Shown piece after piece: positions 24,551-40,620 of a stretch of DNA of 64,000 bases. Positions within the stretch are counted from its first letter, which is position 1. Each line of letters starts with the position of its first letter. Origin of the DNA: Halobellus limi (GTDB taxonomy: Archaea; Halobacteriota; Halobacteria; Halobacteriales; Haloferacaceae); contig NZ_CP031311.1 in the NCBI RefSeq assembly GCF_004799685.1, positions 1,922,001 to 1,986,000 on the forward strand, given 5' to 3'. Both the position numbers and the translations under genes were made by a program. Below the pieces are notes generated by a model. The model made no database searches. It was not told where the DNA came from and saw only the letters and a program-made list of their open reading frames with translations.

Positions 24551-25800
24551 ATGTCCGACCCGAACCCATTTGAGAGTCTTCAAGAGCAGGTCGACGACGC
24601 TGCGGCCTATCTCGATATCGACGAGGACGTTCTCACGCGACTGAAGCACCCGGAACGCGTTCTCGAAGTGAATCTCACGGTCGAACTGGACGACGGGTCC
24701 CACCGTCGATTCAAGGGGTTCCGTTCACAGTTCAACGGCGATCGGGGACCGTACAAGGGCGGAATCCGGTATCACCCGGACGTCTCTCGCGACGAAGTCA
24801 AAGCGCTTTCGGGGTGGATGGCTTACAAGTGTGCGATCGTGGGGATCCCGTTCGGCGGGGGCAAGGGCGGCATCGTCGTCGATCCCGACGACTACTCGGA
24901 GTCGGAACTCGAACGGCTGACGCGGGCCTTCGCGACCGAGCTTCGCCCGCTGGTCGGCCCGGACCGTGACATCCCCGCCCCCGACGTGAACACCGGACAG
25001 CGGGAGATGAACTGGTTCAAAGACACCTACGAGACGCTGGAGCGGACGACGGCCCCGGGCGTGATCACCGGCAAGGCCATCAGTTCCGGCGGGAGCGCGG
25101 GCCGCGTCGAGGCCACCGGTCGGTCGACGATGCTCGCGGCCCGCGAGGCGTTCGACTACCTCGATCGGGACGTCGCGGACGCGACGGTCGCGGTCCAGGG
25201 GTACGGCAACGCGGGCTCGATCGCCGCGCGGTTGATCGAGGACCTCGGGGCGACCGTCGTCGCCGTCTCCGACTCGTCGGGGGGATCTACGATCCCGACG
25301 GGCTGGACGCCCGCGCGGTGAAGTCGTTCAAGAACGAGACCGGAACCGTCACCGGGTACGAGGACGCCGAGGAACTGACCAACGAGGAGCTTCTCACGCT
25401 CGACGTCGACCTCCTCGTCCCGGCGGCGCTCGAGAACGCCATCGACGGCGACCTGGCCGAGGACGTCTCCGCCGACGTGATCGTCGAGGCGGCCAACGGG
25501 CCGCTGACGCCGCGCGCCGACGACGTCCTCACCGAGCGCGACGTCCACGTCGTGCCGGATATCCTCGCCAACGCCGGCGGCGTCACCGTCTCGTACTTCG
25601 AGTGGGTCCAGAACCGCCAGCGCTTCGCCTGGACCGAAGAGCGCGTGAACGACGAGCTCGAAGCCGTGATCACCGACGCCTTCGACGACCTGGTCGCCGC
25701 CTACGAGGAGAACGGCCTCCCGAACTTACGGACGGCGGCGTACGTCGTCGCGACCCGTCGGATCGCCGACTCCTACCTCGAAAGCGGCAACTGGCCGTAG
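24551..25800 (+). pseudogene. Glu/Leu/Phe/Val dehydrogenase (glutamate dehydrogenase), frameshifted
   Basis: The two halves together encode a normal glutamate dehydrogenase of about 416 residues. The dimerisation domain has the glutamate-binding region [10 protein letters not shown], and the Rossmann domain starts [11 protein letters not shown]. The reading frame breaks at a run of six G at 25279-25284. One more G would restore [11 protein letters not shown] and join the upstream frame (to 25321) to the downstream frame (from 25318 back). The rest of the gene shows no decay, which argues for a sequencing error, a very recent mutation or slippage rather than an old pseudogene. The enzyme interconverts glutamate and 2-oxoglutarate. 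Confidence 0.93.
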
Positions 25801-30009: not shown

Positions 30010-30958
30010 TACAGCGGGAGCGCCGTGAACGAGAGGCCGACGGCGAACAGGACGGCGTAGGCCGCCAGGAGCCGTCCGGTCCGTTCCAGCGTCGGGTTGA
30101 GGATCCGACCGTCGGTCTCTCCCAGGATCGTTCGCGTGATGCTTGCGGCGTACGGGAGGGTGAGATACGGGAGCGCGATGGCCACCGTATACCCGGGACG
30201 GGCGAGGAACCACAGCGGCACTGCGTACGCCACGAGGAGCATCGCGAGGAACTCCGCGCGGGCGAATCCGTAGCCGAACCGAACCGCGAGCGTCCGCTTG
30301 CCGGTGGTGGCGTCCTCCTCCCTGTCGCGGACGTTGTTGACGACGAGAATGTCCGTCGACAGCGCCGCGATCGGCAGCGCCGCGACGAGGACCGCGAGCG
30401 GGAGCGTCTCGGGCGGGACCCCGAGGGGGAACGGCTCGGCGAGCACCGCCGCGGCCTGGACGTAGTACGTTCCCGCGACCGCGACGAGGCCGAAGAACAC
30501 GAAGACGAACAGGTCACCCAGGCCGTGGTAGCCGAGCGGGTACGGGCCGCCGGTGTAGGCGATGCCGGAGGCGACCGAGAGGAGTCCGACCACGAGGATC
30601 GGCGCGCCGCCGACGTAGACCAGGTAGGTGCCCAAGAGGATCGACGCGGCGAACGTGAGATACATCGCGCGCTTGACCGTCTCGGGGTCGATGAGCCCCC
30701 CGCCGTCACTCGGGTGAACCCCTCTCGTTCCTCGGTGTCGGCGCCCTTGACGTAATCGTAGTAGTCGTTGGCGAAGTTGGTCCCGATCTGGATGAGGCCG
30801 GCACCGACGAGCGCCGCCAGTGCCGGGAGGACTGCGAACACACCGTCGTGGACGGCGATCCCGGTCCCGACGACGACCGGCGAGGCCGCCGCCGGCAGCG
30901 TCTGTGGCCGGGCGGCCATCACCCACGCCTCGCGTTTCGTGACCTCCTGCGTGCTCAT
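30009..30958 (-). pseudogene. menA: 1,4-dihydroxy-2-naphthoate polyprenyltransferase, frameshifted
   Basis: Two frames together make a complete UbiA-family membrane prenyltransferase of about 316 residues. The first part (from 30958) has MSTQEVTKREAWVMAARPQT and the magnesium motif NDYYDYVKGAD. The second part has the other aspartate motif, VRDREED, and about seven helices. The frame breaks at six C on the plus strand (30696-30701), which is six G in the gene. A seventh would restore VTAGGLIDPETV. Everything else is intact. It attaches the isoprenoid tail to the naphthoate ring. menC follows with a one-base overlap. Confidence 0.93.
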
Positions 30959-30999
30959 TACTCTCCCCTCCGAACGGCGAGGGTGTCAAGCTTATCCTT

Positions 31000-31064
31000 C
31001 CACCTTTTTTCACGGAGGGGTCTGCAGGACCCCTCCGCGCAAAAACCGGGAGGAAAAAAGGCCG
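31000..31064. repeat. Left boundary hairpin / imperfect inverted repeat of the low-GC island
   Basis: Reading plus, CCACCTTTTTT is followed by a perfect hairpin (GGAGGGGTC, loop TGCAG, GACCCCTCC at 31014-31036), then GCGCAAAAA, and ends AAAAAAGGCCG. The same architecture appears inverted at 36262-36341. It lies just upstream of menA. Confidence 0.6.
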
Positions 31065-31254
31065 CCGACGTCGACGGTGAACCGCTCGCTTCGTCGCCAG
31101 CGTTCTGTGCTGGCTTCCAGCGAGACCGGAGGTCTCGCCCGGCTCGCGGATGCTCAGACAAGGAACGCCTAGGTCGTTCAAAACAGAACGATGAGATACT
31201 GTTACTCAGATCATCACAACTATTTTTCCCTCAGCGTGGGAGACTATACGTAAC

Positions 31255-31506
31255 GTGAATAAAAATAAAGAATTGGTTATTTACGAACGACAGGATGACA
31301 CTGAGTTTGAAGACGACTTATTCACGGCATTTGAGGTAGCCGGTGCAGACTTGGAGAACCAAGATGTACCGATGATGGAGTTCATTGACCCACTTGCGCT
31401 TAAGCAATTAAATTGGGATAATCCACAGTTAGAAGTCCGAACTGAAGTATGGGGATACCTCTTACGTATCACTCCCGACGATATTACGATCTACTCACGT
31501 GAATAA
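31255..31506 (+). CDS. HalOD1 output domain-like protein
   Basis: An 83-residue acidic protein starting at a GTG. The pattern LFTAFEVAGADLENQDVPMM followed by EFIDPLALKQL and a final short beta pair resembles the HalOD1 output domain found in haloarchaeal signalling proteins. That domain has a 'hydrophobic-helix, IDPDAL' core. The gene is AT-rich compared with the flanks, as are the other genes to 36.1 kb. It would act in the cytoplasm as a regulatory partner; no kinase lies nearby. Confidence 0.7.
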   Translation: MNKNKELVIYERQDDTEFEDDLFTAFEVAGADLENQDVPMMEFIDPLALKQLNWDNPQLEVRTEVWGYLLRITPDDITIYSRE

Positions 31507-31569
31507 ATTCGTTCAGTCCAGGACCTACACGTACCAATCTCCAGGAGGCTTCTGGTTGGTGTGAAATTC

Positions 31570-31815
31570 TCAGGGCGTCGATTCGACGCGCTCTCCTCGT
31601 ACTGTGACGTAAATGAGTATGCCGAGCAGTCCGGGAACCAAGCCTGCCAAGAACAGCAATGCGATACCTACTCCCCATTGCCACGCCCAGTCGCTCCCAC
31701 GAGCTTTCGCATCGCGGTAGACCCACCGACCGATTAGACCGAAGACGAGGGCCAGTATCAGGAAGATAATCATCAACTCGGGTCCACCGGGGACTTGTAA
31801 GGGAAGCGGGAACAC
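31570..31815 (-). CDS. Small membrane protein (two predicted helices)
   Basis: An 81-residue protein with the N-terminal PGGPEL motif seen before the first helix of several haloarchaeal membrane proteins. One helix follows (MIIFLILALVFGLIGRWVY), then a short basic/aromatic loop (RDAKARGSDWAWQW) and a second helix. The function is unknown. It is in the AT-richer island, downstream of and on the same strand as the sensor-domain protein. Confidence 0.7.
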   Translation of the reverse strand: MFPLPLQVPGGPELMIIFLILALVFGLIGRWVYRDAKARGSDWAWQWGVGIALLFLAGLVPGLLGILIYVTVRGERVESTP

Positions 31816-31956
31816 AGATAATGCAATTCTCAGAACCCGTATAGACTTTTCTCATACGGTCAACCCACACTTCTGTTTCAACAGCTGATTCAGCTACAGA
31901 GGTGTGAAAACAGTCCCTCGGGAAGAGTTCAATAACACCTTCGGGCCCACACAAAA

Positions 31957-32610
31957 TTACAAGAGTATCAGCGCGATTTTTCCGAGGAGACGGGCGGTAA
32001 CGTTGAACAGAGACATCGAAGTGATCAGTCCAATCATACCGATGGGGACAGCGATCACTGCTTCAGTCAACGTGTCGATCGTCCAGATGCCGAGTTCGAT
32101 CCCAGTACTGGGAACCGTGTAAATGAACGGTGCCAGCAGCAAGCCGGCAGACACACTCAGAGACGCGATGAGTAGACTAAACACCAAGATCCCGAGCGGG
32201 AGCTTCAACACTAAATAGACGATACCCTTCCACGTTGAGCGAGCTACCACCCGTACTCGTATCTGCGGCCATAGCGTCGTCTCGTCTGTAATTGCGTCTT
32301 CAGGTGGCCGGATATCGAGGTTCAGCAGCGCGTTTGTGAGTTCTCGCTCGAAGGCACTAAGATAGCGGCTCCCGAGAATGACGCCGATCAACAGCGGCAC
32401 TCCCACCAGAACGACTGTTAATCCAAGTCCGAGGACAGTCCCGACAGTTAACAGAACGAAGTATGCTATCCCGAGAGGAAACATTATCAGTAGGTACAGG
32501 AGATTTCGGTACGTCTGTGCTCGGCTGAGTGGCCTGAGCACGGTGGACATCAGCGAATCGTCCCGTTTGGGTCGGTCGTCGTGACTGCCCGATTCATTTC
32601 TGAACACCAA
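31957..32610 (-). CDS. Membrane protein with putative sensor domain
   Basis: A 217-residue protein with four hydrophobic segments in two pairs, separated by a 60-residue soluble region. The pattern (AQTYRNLLYLLIMFPLGIAY, then STWKGIVYLVLKLPLGILVF) matches the duplicated 'Putative sensor' domain that usually precedes histidine kinases. Here it stands alone, without a kinase. The start at 32610 overlaps the end of the CPBP protease gene by 17 bases; a second ATG at 32550 would remove the overlap. The overlap suggests a joint function with the protease. Confidence 0.75.
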   Translation of the reverse strand: MVFRNESGSHDDRPKRDDSLMSTVLRPLSRAQTYRNLLYLLIMFPLGIAYFVLLTVGTVLGLGLTVVLVGVPLLIGVILGSRYLSAFERELTNALLNLDIRPPEDAITDETTLWPQIRVRVVARSTWKGIVYLVLKLPLGILVFSLLIASLSVSAGLLLAPFIYTVPSTGIELGIWTIDTLTEAVIAVPIGMIGLITSMSLFNVTARLLGKIALILL

Positions 32611-33403
32611 TCTCGTCGATTCCCGTGCTTGTAGGCTGCCGTTTTGTGTTGCGTGTCGCCCGTCGATCTTGCCAGAGAAGCCATACTCCGATCGCTCCGG
32701 CGAGCAGTACGAACCCGATTGAAATCAGTTCGTAGACCATCGACGTCGTCGCTGCGAGTGATCCGGTCACATCAACTGCGAAGTGCCAGACGATGAGCGG
32801 CCAGAGGCTCTCTAGCCGGAGTGCAATCGCACCGAGACCGATACCTAACGGGATGATGAGCAGCATCTGTGGGAGCCACTCGGCCAGCGAATTCCCGAGG
32901 ATGACCTGTGAGATGTGGGCTAGACCAAACATCGTGGCCGGAAGCACGACAGCCAGCAGGCGGCTGCGAGGCTCAAGTGCACGGAGCAACACACCACGAT
33001 AGATGAGTTCTTCAGAGATGGCCGCTCCGAGTGCCACACCCACGATGATCACGAAGAGTGCCGCCCACGGCGGAAGGGTTTGGCCCTCAATGAGCGAGAT
33101 CTCGGGGATAGCGAGGCCGAATATGACTGGGACAAAGACGACGACCGCGAAGGGGAGCAGATAGACAATCGCACGCCGATTGACTGGTGCCGTGAGCCGA
33201 ATTTTTCCCCACCACCCGAGCCAGGTGACGAGCGCGATACTAACCGCCACGATGAGCCAATTGAGCACGAGCCCGATTCCGTGAAGCGTCAACTGGGGCA
33301 CGACAGCTTCGAGGATAGTTCGTGTGAGTAGTGTCAGGACAACAAGTGCGGCTGTGAACCCGAGTGTAAATCCGACTGGGTGACGTTCGACAATCGATAC
33401 CAT
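32594..33403 (-). CDS. CPBP family intramembrane metalloprotease
   Basis: A 269-residue membrane protein with about eight helices and the complete CPBP (Abi/CAAX) catalytic set: EE at 131-132 with R136 (EELIYRG), H163 in FGLAHIS, and H207 with D211 in VWHFAVD. Such proteases cleave prenylated or other membrane peptides, and some give immunity to bacteriocins. A minus-strand TATA-like ATTATATATAG lies at 33424-33434. It heads a short operon with the sensor-domain gene. Confidence 0.9.
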   Translation of the reverse strand: MVSIVERHPVGFTLGFTAALVVLTLLTRTILEAVVPQLTLHGIGLVLNWLIVAVSIALVTWLGWWGKIRLTAPVNRRAIVYLLPFAVVVFVPVIFGLAIPEISLIEGQTLPPWAALFVIIVGVALGAAISEELIYRGVLLRALEPRSRLLAVVLPATMFGLAHISQVILGNSLAEWLPQMLLIIPLGIGLGAIALRLESLWPLIVWHFAVDVTGSLAATTSMVYELISIGFVLLAGAIGVWLLWQDRRATRNTKRQPTSTGIDEIGVQK

Positions 33404-33423
33404 ACAATATGTACGTCAAACTA

Positions 33424-33434
33424 CTATATATAAT
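33424..33434 (-). promoter_or_regulatory. TATA box for the CPBP operon
   Basis: Minus-strand ATTATATATAG ends 20 bases before the ATG at 33403, giving a leaderless or near-leaderless transcript. Confidence 0.55.
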
Positions 33435-33532
33435 CGTATTGACAAACGGACACTGACAACCTATATCAAAATCCTCGTGCTGGATATCAGAGAAGACGTA
33501 GATCGTTCGATAAAGGGCCACTATTTTGCAAT

Positions 33533-34135
33533 CTATTCAACCACGGTGAAATCGGTGTCGTCGGTCACCAACAGTTGATTTTCGTTTTTCTTTACATATC
33601 TGTGATCTTTTACTCCTCTGAATCGAATCGTCTCCCCAACGTCGAAATGAGGATGTGAAACCCCATCCGAGACGACCAGCGGGACTCGTTTGGATGAGCC
33701 TTCTTCGCGGACGATAGCCTTTAGATCAGGTGTATTGGAGGTGTTTTTTGCTACGAATTCGACCTCACTGATCGTGGCTTCGACTGTGACAAACTCTTCA
33801 GAGCCACGTAATTCAGTAAGATTCCGTTCCGGATAATCCTTAGAAACGCTCGTGGTTGAGGTCTCATATTGTTCGTTTGGCTCTTGGCTTGATGATACAA
33901 TATCTGGGTCTTTGAGTTCTACCGTCAGATAATTTGTTTCGCTGTCCGTTCCGATACGAAATGACTGAACCTCGACCGTGATCGTTGCCCCGCCATCTGT
34001 TGGGGTCGGTTCATCTCCGGGGAACAGACAAACAGTCTTAGAATCACCAGCTGGTTCGGTTACTACCCACTGACCGCCAGACCTTCGGATCTGAATTTCT
34101 CCCGTTCCACCAGACCTGTACCACACTTCAGTCAT
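33533..34135 (-). CDS. Hypothetical protein with a probable C-terminal OB fold
   Basis: A 200-residue acidic protein of unknown function. The C-terminal 85 residues have the strand pattern of an OB fold: FVTVEATISEVEFV, then DLKAIVREE, RVPLVVSDG, FDVGETIRFRGVKDH and QLLVTDDTDFTV. This resembles nucleic-acid-binding OB domains of RPA-like proteins. The N-terminal half is less clear, with TEVWYRSGGTGEIQIRRSGG at the start and an acidic, Ser/Thr-rich middle. No zinc cysteines are present. It may bind DNA or RNA, or simply be an OB-containing adaptor. Confidence 0.65.
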   Translation of the reverse strand: MTEVWYRSGGTGEIQIRRSGGQWVVTEPAGDSKTVCLFPGDEPTPTDGGATITVEVQSFRIGTDSETNYLTVELKDPDIVSSSQEPNEQYETSTTSVSKDYPERNLTELRGSEEFVTVEATISEVEFVAKNTSNTPDLKAIVREEGSSKRVPLVVSDGVSHPHFDVGETIRFRGVKDHRYVKKNENQLLVTDDTDFTVVE

Positions 34136-34505
34136 ACACTCTCTTCATCAGGTATATGTTTCAAGCTTTGTCCGTTTAGCTACTATTAGGACAGCAAACA
34201 TATCATCAGACTCTATTTAGGAAATATACTATCGGATCATACGTTAGAGAGTGGACTGGGCACTCTACGCAATACGCATCGTCTATCAGACGGCTAGTTC
34301 AGAGAGAAGGATATCGAATTAATAGGATTTCAACAGCGCCGGCTGTCCCTGTGTTGGGCACACCAAGATTCTGAAACAAGCGATTTACCTGTACGGTTCA
34401 AGCGAGTGGAGCGGCACATACGAGTGAGATCCCCTACTCCGTTATAAATACATTACCGGATTAAGCTAAATCTCGATGCTATTCTGGGCCCGTTATACTA
34501 ATTGT
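34136..34505. other. Intergenic region with one copy of a 27-base dispersed repeat
   Basis: I see no convincing gene in these 370 AT-rich bases. They contain the first copy of the repeat at 34275-34301 (see the second at 36141). A TATA-like GTTATACTAATTG just before 34506 would serve the small frame there. Confidence 0.5.
34275..34301. repeat. Dispersed 27-base repeat, copy 1
   Basis: CGCATCGTCTATCAGACGGC followed by TAGTTCA recurs at 36141-36167 with one mismatch. It contains the small palindrome CGTCT-ATC-AGACG. Confidence 0.85.
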
Positions 34506-34643
34506 ATGGCACACAAAGGCCGCAGTGGCGAGACGAGCACAGACACTGAATCAAAATTCTATCTCCCTGTGGGGATCTCGCCATCTTCCAAAGAGAGCTG
34601 GATCGACCGCATCTGGACGGTCCTGTTCAATCACCGCGTCTGA
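34506..34643 (+). CDS. Possible 45-residue small protein
   Basis: The frame begins MAHKGRSGETSTDTE and ends WIDRIWTVLFNHRV. It has a polar, Ser/Thr-rich front half and a Trp-containing amphipathic C-terminal segment. A TATA-like GTTATACT stands about 12-20 bases upstream. I know of no family. It could be a small regulatory or membrane-associated protein, or chance. Confidence 0.35.
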   Translation: MAHKGRSGETSTDTESKFYLPVGISPSSKESWIDRIWTVLFNHRV

Positions 34644-34851
34644 GAAATCAGAATCGCAGCAAGTGGTGACGATGAAAGAGAACTAGTCAACTAGTTTTTC
34701 CAAGGACATCGTTATCGACCACGTTCGAGGACCATCATACGAGGACTTCTAACATTTCTTTGCGAACATCACAAGATGAGTTTCAACTAAATATCTGGGA
34801 AACTAACATAGAGTGGGAATACGTCTTGGAAATCACTCGTGTAGAAGACTA

Positions 34852-35505
34852 ATGAGCGATATTAAAGCCGTCATCCGAGTCGAGCACCCTGATATTGTGC
34901 TCACGGGCACTGTCAGTCACGACCAAAGTGCGACGGTGATGCCTGTGTCAGAAGCAGGTACTGACCCCGACACGGGGAGGTTTCTATACCACGTTGAATC
35001 ATCGGACTTCTGTCGATTCGAAGATGGATTACGAAGTGACCACACGATAGCAGAGTTCAAACGAGTCATCGAAACCACCGCTGAGAGGGCAATCTACAGC
35101 TTTGAGTACACTGACGAAGCAAAGACGTTCTCGCCGGTGATCTCGAAAGCGGACGGTGTAGCGCTTGAGATGGAAAACGAGAGCAACGCGTGGCTCATCT
35201 CGCTGTGGATGCCCGATCGAGACAGACTGGCCGACGTTTGGGACTACGCGCAAGCCAACAGTATCGACATCGATCTACGGCGGGTAAACGAGTATGCGAG
35301 TCTCGGGAAGACAACTGCTGGATTGACTGAAACGCAACGCGAGGCGTTACTCGTCGCTTTCGAGGCAGGATATTTCAAGGATCCACGCGAGGTAACACTC
35401 AGTGAGGTTGCGGACACGCTCGACATTTCGAAGCCAGCCGCCAGTGGTCTTCTTCGACGTGGAATCCAGCGATTAATCATCTCCAGCCTCGTCGAGGACA
35501 GTTGA
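34852..35505 (+). CDS. Bat-type helix-turn-helix transcriptional regulator
   Basis: A 217-residue regulator of the bacterio-opsin activator type. The N-terminal sensor-like half is followed by a C-terminal HTH_10 domain of about 55 residues, from LTETQREALLVAFEAGYFKD through LSEVADTLDISKPAASGLLR to the end. The ATG at 34852 is taken. A leaderless GTG at 34813, about 20 bases after a TATA-like AACTAAATATC, is a credible alternative that adds 13 residues. It is the only DNA-binding regulator in the low-GC island and may control it. Confidence 0.88.
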   Translation: MSDIKAVIRVEHPDIVLTGTVSHDQSATVMPVSEAGTDPDTGRFLYHVESSDFCRFEDGLRSDHTIAEFKRVIETTAERAIYSFEYTDEAKTFSPVISKADGVALEMENESNAWLISLWMPDRDRLADVWDYAQANSIDIDLRRVNEYASLGKTTAGLTETQREALLVAFEAGYFKDPREVTLSEVADTLDISKPAASGLLRRGIQRLIISSLVEDS

Positions 35506-35516
35506 ACAATTACAGC

Positions 35517-35631
35517 CAGCTTTTTGTTGACTCGGGTGCGACTCCGGCGCACCGCTCTCCACGGGCGACCCGTGAGTCGCCCGTGGGGAAGCGAGACGGC
35601 TCTGCCGTCTCGCCCTCGTTGCAAAAAGCTG
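35517..35631. repeat. Structured 115-base element with terminal inverted repeats
   Basis: The ends are perfect 10-base inverted repeats, CAGCTTTTTG at 35517-35526 and CAAAAAGCTG at 35622-35631. Inside are two perfect hairpins: CCACGGGCGAC/GTCGCCCGTGG (11-base arms, 6-base loop) and GCGAGACGGC/GCCGTCTCGC (10-base arms, TCT loop). The element is GC-rich inside an AT-rich island and carries no ORF. A MITE, a solo end of an IS200/605-type element or a structured RNA are all possible. Confidence 0.6.
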
Positions 35632-35740
35632 TCTTGCTGAGCGAAGCAGGGATTACATACACCGGATAGTTCGGATAGGTGTAACTCGAAGGTCCGGAGT
35701 TTGCACCCACTATTTACGCGTCCCCCGTGATTTTTGAACT

Positions 35741-36121
35741 ATGGTCCCTTCCGAGAGCATAGACGACGACCAATATTTCGGTGGGCGAAGAGGTGTCGTA
35801 GTTCTCGCTGTTGCGTACGTGGCAGTTGGACTCGGGTTGTTCTACAGTCTCGCTACGCAGTCGATAGACCTTTTCAGCGGCGTTCTTGTCGCTATCATCG
35901 TTTTAGTGGGGCTATCACTGTATATCCTCTACAGACGGGAGGGATTAGTGACAGCCGAGAATAAACTCATTGCCATCTTCGTTCTGGTCGCAACGGGGCT
36001 TTTGTTTGGACTCCTTGAGTTCACCACCCTACCGTCAGAGATTGTCTATGGAATAGTATTTGGGGTCGGTGTCGTTGTTCCCGGGTTACTCCTACAGTAT
36101 ACTGATTACGGGAGTGACTGA
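35741..36121 (+). CDS. Four-helix membrane protein of unknown function
   Basis: A 126-residue protein with four hydrophobic helices at roughly 18-38, 42-62, 73-92 and 98-117, a short acidic N-terminus and a charged loop (YRREGLVTAENK) between helices two and three. It has no catalytic motif that I recognise. It belongs to the AT-richer island by base composition. Confidence 0.72.
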   Translation: MVPSESIDDDQYFGGRRGVVVLAVAYVAVGLGLFYSLATQSIDLFSGVLVAIIVLVGLSLYILYRREGLVTAENKLIAIFVLVATGLLFGLLEFTTLPSEIVYGIVFGVGVVVPGLLLQYTDYGSD

Positions 36122-36140
36122 TTGGTTCGATTGTTCTATT

Positions 36141-36167
36141 CGCATCGTCTATCAGACGGCTAATTCA
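36141..36167. repeat. Dispersed 27-base repeat, copy 2
   Basis: Matches 34275-34301 with one mismatch. Here the CGTCTATC core also finds a downstream complement GATAGACG at about 36173-36180. Confidence 0.85.
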
Positions 36168-36261
36168 TCGACGATAGACGTGAAATCAATGGTCCCGAAC
36201 ATCCGTCCCACGCTCAGATTCTAGCATATTCCACCGCGATCGAGGCCGAAGGCCGAGCGAG

Positions 36262-36341
36262 CGGCCTTTTTTGGTCCAGATTTTTTGCGGGGGTTCGAGG
36301 CCGCGCGCAGCGCGGCCGAGGACCCCCGATAAAAAAGGTGG
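36262..36341. repeat. Right boundary hairpin / imperfect inverted repeat of the low-GC island
   Basis: Read on the minus strand this is CCACCTTTTTT, a long hairpin (8-base inner arms GCGCGGCC/GGCCGCGC plus 7-base outer arms CGGGGGT/ACCCCCG), CAAAAAA and finally AAAAAAGGCCG. The order and flanking motifs match the left element at 31000-31064. It starts directly after the menB stop and could also end menB transcription. Confidence 0.6.
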
Positions 36342-36342
36342 G

Positions 36343-37260
36343 TTAGTAGTGCCAGGGGTACCCCGAGAAGTCGGGGTCGCGGCCTTCGAGGAACGCGTCC
36401 CGTCCCTCCTGGGCCTCCTCGGTCATATACGCCAGGCGCGTCGCTTCTCCGGAGAACACCTGCTGGCCGACGAGGCCGTCGTCGGTCAGGTTGAACGCGT
36501 ACTTGAGCATTCGTATCGCGGTGGGCGATTTATCGGTCATCTCGTCGGCCCATTCCAGGGCGATGTCCTCCAGTTCCTCGTGGGGAATCGCCTCGTTCGC
36601 CATCCCCATCTCGACGGCCTCCTCAGCGGAGTAGGTCTTCCCGCGGAAGAACACCTCTCGGGCCTTCTTCTGGCCGATCTGCTTCGCGAGATAGGCCGAG
36701 CCGAACCCGCCGTCGAACGACGCGACGTCGGGGTCCGTCTGAAGGAACTTGGCGTGATCCTCGGAGGCGAGCGTCAGGTCGCAGACGACGTGCAGCGAGT
36801 GGCCACCACCCACCGCCCAGCCGGGAACGACGGCGACGACCGGTTTCGGCATAAATCGGATGAGGCGCTGCACCTCCAGGATGTGGAGCCGACCGGCCTT
36901 CGCCTCGCGGACGAGCGGGTCGTCTCCCTCGTCGGCCTCGTCGTCGTCGCGGTACTCGTAGCCCGACTCGCCGCGGACCGACTGATCGCCGCCGGCGCAG
37001 AAGGCCCAGCCGCCGTCCTTCGGCGACGGGCCGTTGCCCGTCAGGAGGACGCAGCCGACGTCTGCTCGCTTGCGGGCGTCGTCGAGCGCCGCGTAGAGTT
37101 CGTCGACGGTGCCCGGGCGGAACGCGTTGCGCTTCTCGGGCCTGTCGAAGGCGATCCGAACCGCCGGCACGTCGATCCCCCGGTGGTACGTGACGTCGTC
37201 GAAGGCGTCCGCGCCGTCGACCTGCTCCCAGCGCGCGCCGTCGAAGATCTCTGAAACCAT
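36343..37260 (-). CDS. menB: 1,4-dihydroxy-2-naphthoyl-CoA synthase
   Basis: A 305-residue crotonase-superfamily enzyme that closes the naphthoate ring in menaquinone synthesis. Oxyanion-hole segments AFCAGGDQS and PGWAVGGGHSLHVVCDLTLAS are present. MenB-specific features include the SFDGGFGSAYLA loop and the C-terminal DPDFSGYPWHY. The ATG at 37260 gives the normal N-terminus. Downstream, the expected neighbour menA is 5.4 kb away, beyond the low-GC island. Confidence 0.96.
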   Translation of the reverse strand: MVSEIFDGARWEQVDGADAFDDVTYHRGIDVPAVRIAFDRPEKRNAFRPGTVDELYAALDDARKRADVGCVLLTGNGPSPKDGGWAFCAGGDQSVRGESGYEYRDDDEADEGDDPLVREAKAGRLHILEVQRLIRFMPKPVVAVVPGWAVGGGHSLHVVCDLTLASEDHAKFLQTDPDVASFDGGFGSAYLAKQIGQKKAREVFFRGKTYSAEEAVEMGMANEAIPHEELEDIALEWADEMTDKSPTAIRMLKYAFNLTDDGLVGQQVFSGEATRLAYMTEEAQEGRDAFLEGRDPDFSGYPWHY

Positions 37261-39130: not shown

Positions 39131-39244
39131 CGGTTCTCCGTTCGTTCTCGCTCAGTCATCGTCGTCCCGTCGGTCTCGCTCAGTCATCGTTTCTCCGTGC
39201 GGTTTCTCTCGGTCATAGCCGTCCCGTCGGTGGCGTTCAATCAT
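39128..39244 (-). repeat. Tandem repeat (28/29-base units) across the menF-menD junction
   Basis: Read on the minus strand, ATG codons recur at 39244, 39216, 39187, 39159 and 39130, spaced 28, 29, 28 and 29 bases. Each is followed by a variant of ATGACTGAGCGAGA. Alternate units are most alike, giving a 57-base (19-codon) dimer. Several mini-frames (for example MTERERTENR, ending in a TGA that overlaps the menD ATG) are created. Confidence 0.9.
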
Positions 39245-40594
39245 CGCGTTCCCGTTCCAGTTCGTCCAGAATCGGTCGGTACTTCAACTGCACCTCGTCC
39301 CACTCCCGGTCGGGATCGGAGTCGGCGACGATGCCGACGCCGGCGAACAGCGTCGCGGTGTCGCCGCGGGCGACCGCAGAGCGGAGCGCGACGGCGAACG
39401 TGCCGTATCCGGCGGCGTCGATCCAGCCGACCGGCGCGGCGTACCACCCGCGGTCGAACGGTTCCGTCTCCCGGATCGTCGCCAGCGCCCGCCCGGGTGG
39501 AAGCCCCCCGACTGCGGGTGTCGGATGCAGGGCCTCCACCAGCGAGAGGACGTGCTCGTCGCGGTCCAGGGTCGCCGTGATCGGCGTCCAGAGGTGCTGG
39601 ACCGTCGCCAGACGTTTGACCCGGCGCGAGCCGGTACTGACGGTGCCCGCGAACGGCGAGAGCTGCTCTTCGATGGTCTCGGCGACGAGGTCGTGCTCGT
39701 GGGCGTTCTTCTCGTCGCGGGCGAGTTCCTGCGCCAGCCACTCGTCCTCGGCCGGCGTCTCGCCGCGTCCCGTCGTCCCGGCGAGGGCGTCGGTCTCGAC
39801 GGTCCGACCGCGAAGCGAGACGAGCCGCTCGGGCGTCGCCCCGAAGAAGGAAGACTGCGGACGCGACGACGTGGGCTCGGGTTCGACGAGGAACCGGTAG
39901 CACTCGGGGTACGTTCGGCCCAACCGGGTGAGGACGTCGGGGAGCGAGAGCGTCCCCGCGAGGTCGACGTCGAGCGCCTGGGCGAGGACGACCTTCCGGA
40001 GGTCGCCGGATTTGATCCGCGAGACGGCCGCCTCGACGCCCGTCTGCCAGTCCGACCGCGCGGTCGTTCGTCGGCGGTCGGTGACCCCGGGGGGCCGGCC
40101 GGCGAGTCCGGGGCGTCGAGCGAGTCGATCCGTTCCCGTTCTCGGGCGAGTCGCGACTCGACGGTCTCCGGGTCGACGTCTCGTCCCACGGCGTTGACCG
40201 TCAGCCACGCGCCGCCGTCAGTCCACGTGACCTGCACGCGCGGGAAGACGAACCGCGCGCCGGGGAAGTCCTCCCACGGCGACCCCGAGGTGCTGTCGGC
40301 GTGGAAGGCGAACCCGCCGAACAGCCTCGGACGGGCGGCCTCCGTCCCGGCGTGGACGTCGCCGGAGGCGAAGAGCGACTCCGCCGACTCGCGGATCGAC
40401 GAAAAGCGGCTCGGGCCGTCGGCGGTGAGCGTCGCCGCCGCGCCGCTGCCGACGACGGTCGCCTCCTCGGGCGCGCTCCAGACCGTTCGCGGCGCGTCGG
40501 CCCCGTGCAGCACCGCACGGAACGACGGCGTCGAGATGGGGACAGAGCGGCTGACGAGGTTCGTTTCCGCCGCGTCGGTCCGCAACGATTCCAT
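39237..40594 (-). pseudogene. menF: Isochorismate synthase, frameshifted
   Basis: Two frames together encode a full chorismate-binding enzyme of about 452 residues. The N-terminal part starts MESLRTDAAETNLV. The C-terminal part contains GDLRKVVLAQAL, SFFGATPERLV, HLWTPITA and the GWYAAPVGWIDA stretch of the active site. The frame breaks where the plus strand reads CCCC then six G (40089-40094); one more base restores AGPPGVTDRRRT. No other damage is seen. A minus-strand TATA-like GTCAAATAAA is about 28 bases upstream of the ATG at 40594. It makes isochorismate from chorismate, the first menaquinone step. Confidence 0.93.
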
Positions 40595-40620
40595 TACCCG
40601 TGCTGAGGGCGCCACGCTCT

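Follow-up and report, generated by a model that had tools for sequence, protein, structure and literature searches.

Inverted copies of a dispersed haloarchaeal gene-end element, probably a bidirectional terminator, bracket an exchangeable slot in the men genes of Halobellus limi

The menaquinone (men) genes of the haloarchaeon Halobellus limi are split by an AT-rich island of about 5.3 kb between menB and menA, which lies within the 64,000-nucleotide window analysed here (C1:1922001-1986000, from a genome of 3.75 Mb on 4 contigs). Each edge of the island is formed by a copy of a short palindromic sequence that we term element E. We consider it likely that these edges belong to a gene-end element dispersed across the Halobacteriales, that this element most plausibly acts as a compact bidirectional terminator, and that the two copies insulate a slot in the men genes whose contents can be exchanged.

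All men genes in the window lie on the minus strand in the order menF, menD, menB, a 5.4-kb gap, menA and menC, as called from Pfam matches (Chorismate_bind for MenF, TPP_enzyme for MenD, ECH_1 for MenB, UbiA for MenA and MR_MLE for MenC). The distance between menB (36343..37254) and menA (30012..30958) is 5384 bp. The enclosed 5.1 kb has a GC content of 51.1% versus a mean of 67.4% for the remaining window, in which no other 5.1-kb stretch falls below 63%. An initial annotation of this DNA had noted AT-richer sequence with unrelated genes splitting the men genes, as well as T and A blocks and hairpins standing in opposite orientation at the two edges. The composition of the island and its cargo, which is unrelated to men, bear out the former, and every one of the edge pieces is present where the annotation placed it.

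Specifically, the left copy of E (~31000..31065, plus strand, 51.5 bits against the family profile) reads CCACC-TTTTTT-CACGGAGGGGTC..GGACCCCTCCGCG-CAAAAA-CCGGGAGG-AAAAAAGGCCG over positions 31000-31061, where the last block is A6GGCCGC. The right copy (36262..36341, minus strand, 50.3 bits) reads CCACC-TTTTTT-ATCGGGGGTCC..GAACCCCCG-CAAAAAA-TCTGGACC-AAAAAAGGCCG from 36341 to 36262 and ends in the same A6GGCCGC block. The two copies are inverted and their outer blocks match, but their hairpins differ in sequence and length. Both were included in building the profile, which gives them expectation values of 6e-15 and 1e-14 in the window, and the next independent site reaches 9 bits. The T-side of the right copy stands 1 nucleotide past the stop codon of menB (36343-36345), an upstream host gene with strong orthologs in most of the relatives searched. 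The T-side of the left copy points towards the downstream host gene menA and ends at 31000, 41 nucleotides upstream of the menA start codon at 30958. It lies just upstream of a box, AAGCTTGACACC, in the menA upstream region (30959..30999, minus strand). This box is conserved in the genus, as ACTTTGACGCC or similar in relatives, and from its same-position equivalents in Halobellus we take it as the putative menA promoter.

The consensus of E is CYACC-T5/6-hairpin1-A5-nn-TRGA-nn-A5-hairpin2, an imperfect palindrome to which a further A-tract and hairpin are appended, with one T-tract on the top strand and two on the bottom strand. Folding joins T5 to the first A5 and the CYA at the start to the TRG of the linker, although in some copies T5 pairs with the second A5 instead. 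Among 59 distinct copies, this outer CYA/TRG clamp is formed by C-G in 51, T-A in 5, A-T in one and a T-G wobble in one, and it is broken in one. The covariation yields a Fisher p of 1.4e-6 for a C/T by G/A table, an indicative figure given that it is uncorrected for relatedness among the copies. Variants of the hairpin1 stem likewise remain paired (GGCGGG/CCCGCC, GGTGGG/CCCACC, GGAGGG/CCCTCC and GATGGG/CCCATC), and in both the clamp and this stem structure is kept by compensatory change. The clamp was assessed by direct counting in place of RNAalifold, which finds no common structure in a mixed alignment of E because the hairpin sequences and lengths differ among copies. A known RNA family was rejected as an identity for E, as Rfam holds no E family and returns only two matches (24.9 and 23.7 bits) that fall short of their gathering scores of 88 and 70.

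Copies of E were located by pattern and profile searches of the genome, in which those with an altered core are under-counted. A strict pattern finds three sites in the 3.75 Mb (the two edges and one on contig C2) and none with a reversed control; the A5-linker-A5 core finds about 21 distinct sites versus 0-1 for the control; and a profile built from 18 copies finds about 28, or some 26 besides the edges. The initial annotation had proposed as an alternative that its hairpins were gene-end signals, which is correct for most copies: about 19 of the 28 carry their T-side 1-7 nucleotides past a stop codon, and another one stands behind a tRNA gene. The C2 copy, which matches the right edge at 98.8% identity over 86 bp, immediately follows the stop codon of a gene for a solute-binding-protein-like product. 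GC content beside E is 0.598 on the A-side versus 0.662 on the T-side (Wilcoxon p = 0.003).

Beyond this species, 293 Halobacteriales genomes were sampled, and 148 of them contain the E core, with only sporadic matches for the reversed control. Other element-bearing Halobellus carry 4-20 copies, and a divergent clade assigned to Halobellus has none, such that the range within the genus is 0 to about 28. The linker varies by genus: CCTGGAGGG is common in H. limi, TCTGGACC or TGTGGATC is found in genus g24, and CCTGGACT in g12. In two other families, copies consist of CCAC(C)-T5/6 just past stop codons, followed by a hairpin and a second hairpin. Searches of the literature on dispersed palindromic and bidirectional-terminator elements of haloarchaea yielded no description of E, though subscription papers were not covered.

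The men slot itself was compared between H. limi and 20 relatives (designated by G numbers), among which menB and menA are 48-3552 bp apart. Comparison with relatives in which the two genes are adjacent had been proposed in the initial annotation, and seven such genomes have a gap of only 48-217 bp (G001, G004, G009, G010, G012, G017 and G023). Because menB and menA are close neighbors in these relatives, the 5.3 kb in H. limi is supported as acquired, exchangeable DNA. In G001, G009, G010, G012, G017 and G023 the compact slot is without an element. A single copy on the menB side is found in G004, G005, G020, G021 (Halobium) and G022, and an E downstream of menB occurs also in Halorussus. Six Halobellus species have inward-facing pairs, for a total of 11 genomes, H. 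limi included, with a menB-side copy. The contents of these paired slots differ: UspA and a cold-shock protein in G003, UspA and a TnpB-type open reading frame (ORF) in G006, orphan ORFs in G008, no gene in G014, a SnoaL-like gene in G015 and seven genes in H. limi, with the gene names in the relatives read from translations rather than from profile matches. Across the 20 relatives, gene content differs between conserved flanks; related species have other cargo at this site or no cargo at all, which makes it an exchangeable slot.

In a MenB-MenA-MenC tree, all species with a pair group in a single clade, within which G011 is the sole exception and is read as one loss. This species is the sister of H. 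limi, and its slot holds a thioesterase-like gene and no element. Judging from this tree, the bracket of E copies appears to be older than the present cargo, and the simplest history would be an old menB-side E, one gain of an inverted menA-side E, and repeated replacement of the cargo. In the men slot of G006 (L038 2199-5553), the two E copies are near-identical composites that share their extra inserted hairpins, a possible sign of gene conversion between these inverted copies.

How might such a bracket work? Work on Haloferax volcanii places the ends of intergenic transcripts at T-stretches, and insertion of T5C brought 95% termination in vivo (PMC7237163). Copies of E, which also lie in GC-rich haloarchaeal DNA, likewise have a T5/6 tract just past the stop codon, and they carry T-tracts on both strands that face incoming traffic near gene ends. 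Unlike the bare T-tracts of H. volcanii (PMC7237163), they form a dispersed sequence family and have further parts: a hairpin set between the T-tracts of opposite strands, another hairpin, a clamp that covaries and a conserved A5-nCTRGAnn-A5 core. With T5/6 a few nucleotides past the stop codon and two tracts on the opposite strand, E is most simply read as a bidirectional terminator. A polymerase leaving menB would meet a T-tract about 6 nucleotides past the stop codon, such that E would end the upstream operon and the menB message would stop before the cargo. A polymerase arriving from the cargo side would meet the two T-tracts on the other strand. Transcripts of plus-strand cargo genes, which point at menB, would thus end before running antisense into that gene, and those of minus-strand cargo genes, which point at menA, would be halted by the inverted E before they reach the menA promoter. 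The space between the copies would be insulated from both host genes. We hypothesize that, as a result of this insulation, acquired AT-rich DNA could be tolerated in the slot at low cost and repeatedly swapped or reused, with homologous recombination within the conserved flanks as the probable route of exchange.

Similar brackets are found elsewhere. The H. limi chromosome has 5 facing E pairs within 6 kb versus 0.31 expected for random positions (P = 5e-5), or 1.5 expected when only orientations are shuffled (P = 0.001). For Halobellus in total, with loci shared between species counted separately, there are 16 facing, 2 back-to-back and 9 tandem pairs. Four of the five H. limi pairs enclose AT-rich DNA (46-52% GC versus 67%), among them those at the radA-sufU slot (567 bp between, 46% GC), the tfs slot (2.7 kb, 52% GC) and the acs-GNAT slot (1.1 kb, 49% GC; gene names read from translations), and a pair around a short spacer encloses DNA of 62% GC. 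Pairs occupy the radA-sufU slot in five species (H. limi, G003, G004, G006 and G011, although the sufU-side copy of G011 has decayed) and their spacers differ; in G007 and G015 this slot is short and has no E. The tfs slot is free of E and 54-76 bp long in G007, G013 and G022, and in G014 and G015 it contains one copy and measures 200-213 bp.

These loci invite a bolder proposal, which we regard as speculative and somewhat doubtful: an order-wide insulator system of haloarchaea, in which a bidirectional terminator that is mobile or spread by gene conversion would stand next to core genes in inward-facing pairs and so create transcriptionally shielded slots, where foreign AT-rich genes could be gained and swapped with no harm to core operons. 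Should the proposed role of E hold, many haloarchaeal genes would end at a compact, recognisable element that could be searched for across the order, and both gene ends and exchangeable slots would be easier to find by the succession core gene, T-side, cargo, T-side, core gene. Foreign genes would have a simple route for settling inside an operon without breaking it, and archaeal genetics would gain ready-made insulators. The slots resemble flexible genomic islands in that AT-rich accessory genes lie between syntenic core genes and differ between species, but they are small (0.25-5 kb) and bracketed by inward-facing terminator-like elements. At the men slot the flanks are menB and menA, and neither an integrase nor a tRNA target was found there.

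Several points weigh against the proposed function of E. What is observed directly is a family of elements placed at gene ends, covariation in its clamp, the bracket and the turnover of cargo, whereas we infer termination and insulation from these features and from the Haloferax experiment. About 8 of the 28 H. limi copies are found not at 3′ ends but upstream of genes. The count of facing pairs is biased, because some of them amount to no more than two convergent genes that each have their own E. Slots that are free of the element also hold extra genes, as in G007 (3.5 kb), G011 (the thioesterase-like gene) and G018, and therefore the element is not required for insertion. Finally, the hairpin lies beyond the first T-tract and hence is not needed for a T5C terminator, yet it is conserved. 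It may serve as a backstop against read-through or be a remnant of the spreading of the element.

Alternatively, E might mainly be a self-spreading dispersed palindromic repeat of a well-known sort, with gene-end positions and T-tracts that merely mark where it is tolerated and pairs that arise by chance or gene conversion. Copying or conversion of E between sites is clear from stretches of 86-210 bp that share 81-99% identity. Near-identical copies of 86-121 bp at distant sites and on two replicons, the existence of hairpin subfamilies and the range of copy number within the genus all fit such a repeat. Enterobacterial repetitive extragenic palindromic (REP) sequences and bacterial interspersed mosaic elements (BIMEs), which have RAYT transposases, are likewise dispersed palindromes with several hairpins, mostly at gene 3′ ends, in tens of copies and with subfamilies. 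Copies of E share each of these traits; they differ in having T-tracts on both sides, a spacing of a few nucleotides from the stop codon, and a genome without a Y1 transposase (PF01797, RAYT), for which H. limi gave no match while positive controls, including H. volcanii, did. A RAYT-driven REP was rejected on this basis. Transposase-free small mobile repeats (SMRs) with terminal inverted repeats, often inserted into IS605/PATE elements, are described in Haloquadratum walsbyi (PMC3119063). Like the SMRs, miniature inverted-repeat transposable elements (MITEs) and PATEs of that species, E is a dispersed haloarchaeal repeat without a transposase and, as for SMRs, without target duplication; unlike SMRs, it is polar, with its T-side to the gene, and abuts stop codons, a distinction drawn from their description rather than their sequence (PMC3119063). 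Three features point to a selected function: the spacing from stop codons is a tight 1-7 nucleotides, the T-side, core and clamp are conserved while the hairpins change, and E persists at the same gene end across species. We therefore judge it unlikely that E is mainly a self-spreading repeat. A dispersed repeat family can also double as terminators, as paired DNA-uptake sequences in Neisseria and Haemophilus are reported to do (PMC1852404); these come from a different domain of life and have a different layout.

The initial annotation suggested an integrated unit with terminal inverted repeats, for which a transposase would have to act in trans. The inverted edges, the AT-rich cargo and its absence from the men site of the 20 relatives fit such a unit, as do two pairs with nearly identical ends (C1:1407445/1408740 and the G006 men pair). 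The proposed check for target-site duplications, however, gives outer flanks of TATCCTT (left) and TTAGTAG (right) with no direct repeat, and the left and right hairpins differ. Of the approximately 28 copies, most are unpaired and lie at ordinary gene ends, a placement that the annotation itself had named as refuting a unit. The cargo varies while the bracket, apparently the older of the two, stays beside menB and menA in six species, and among the cargo genes no transposase was found, nor an integrase, as the annotation had correctly reported. A mobile unit bounded by terminal inverted repeats was rejected on these grounds and is very improbable. Also very improbable is a role for E as a signal for 3′-end stabilization or processing in RNA, in which a hairpin on the mRNA end blocks exonucleases: the strong hairpins with compensatory changes and the hairpins upstream of 3′ ends at 503 Haloferax sites (PMC7237163) would suit it, but T5/6 precedes the hairpin on both strands, and therefore a transcript ending at the T-tract would lack the hairpin, and copies upstream of menA-type promoters do not fit.

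The AT-rich cargo between the edges (31062..36261, 51% GC) carries seven genes. Gene calls were made with a simple codon-score script. An orphan ORF of 83 amino acids (31255..31506, plus strand) is followed by a membrane-protein-like ORF of 81 amino acids (31570..31815, minus), a 'Sensor' PF13796 protein (31957..32610, minus; Pfam expectation value 4.7e-36), a CPBP/Rce1-like membrane protease (32594..33403, minus; 2.8e-18) and an ORF of 200 amino acids not assigned to a family (33533..34135, minus). An HTH_10 (Bat-like) regulator (34813..35505, plus; 4.6e-16), whose true start may be 34852, and a membrane protein of 126 amino acids (35741..36121, plus), the last cargo gene and convergent with menB, complete the set. 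The Sensor protein has relatives in 58 of 119 family genomes, at other sites and with a best identity of 51% outside its own genome, and no source of the cargo was found among them. A defence island was rejected, as a PADLOC scan of the seven proteins gave no match.

Directly 3′ of the HTH_10 stop codon sits a partial third E of type II (35511..35631, plus strand, identified by sequence comparison), which comprises the T-side and an extended hairpin region with extra hairpins. It is 97% identical to the copy at C1:733136, and near-identical copies lie at C1:733136 and C1:224168. A 30-bp direct repeat, ATNCGCATCGTCTATCAGACGGCTARTTCA, occurs twice in the island (34272-34301 and 36138-36167), and the copy of E at C1:1407445 has a related stretch on its A-side, such that some copies share about 200 bp. 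Adjoining the C2 copy of E is a second palindromic repeat (GTAGCGTTTGCAA...TTGCAAACGCTAC, L003 1785-1870), perhaps a MITE, and similar sequence is present in the men slots of G014 and G006.

Several reading frames of the window are broken. The menA frame is interrupted by a one-base shift near 30704, where a G-run at 30704-30716 lacks one base that ten relatives have; this may be an assembly error. The gene for MenF (39237-40615, minus strand) is split between two frames, and that for glutamate dehydrogenase (gdhA, 24551-25800) forms two overlapping frames covering ELFV_dehydrog positions 1-73 and 80-241, which resembles a one-base insertion or deletion. Three broken housekeeping genes suggest insertion or deletion errors in the H. 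limi assembly.

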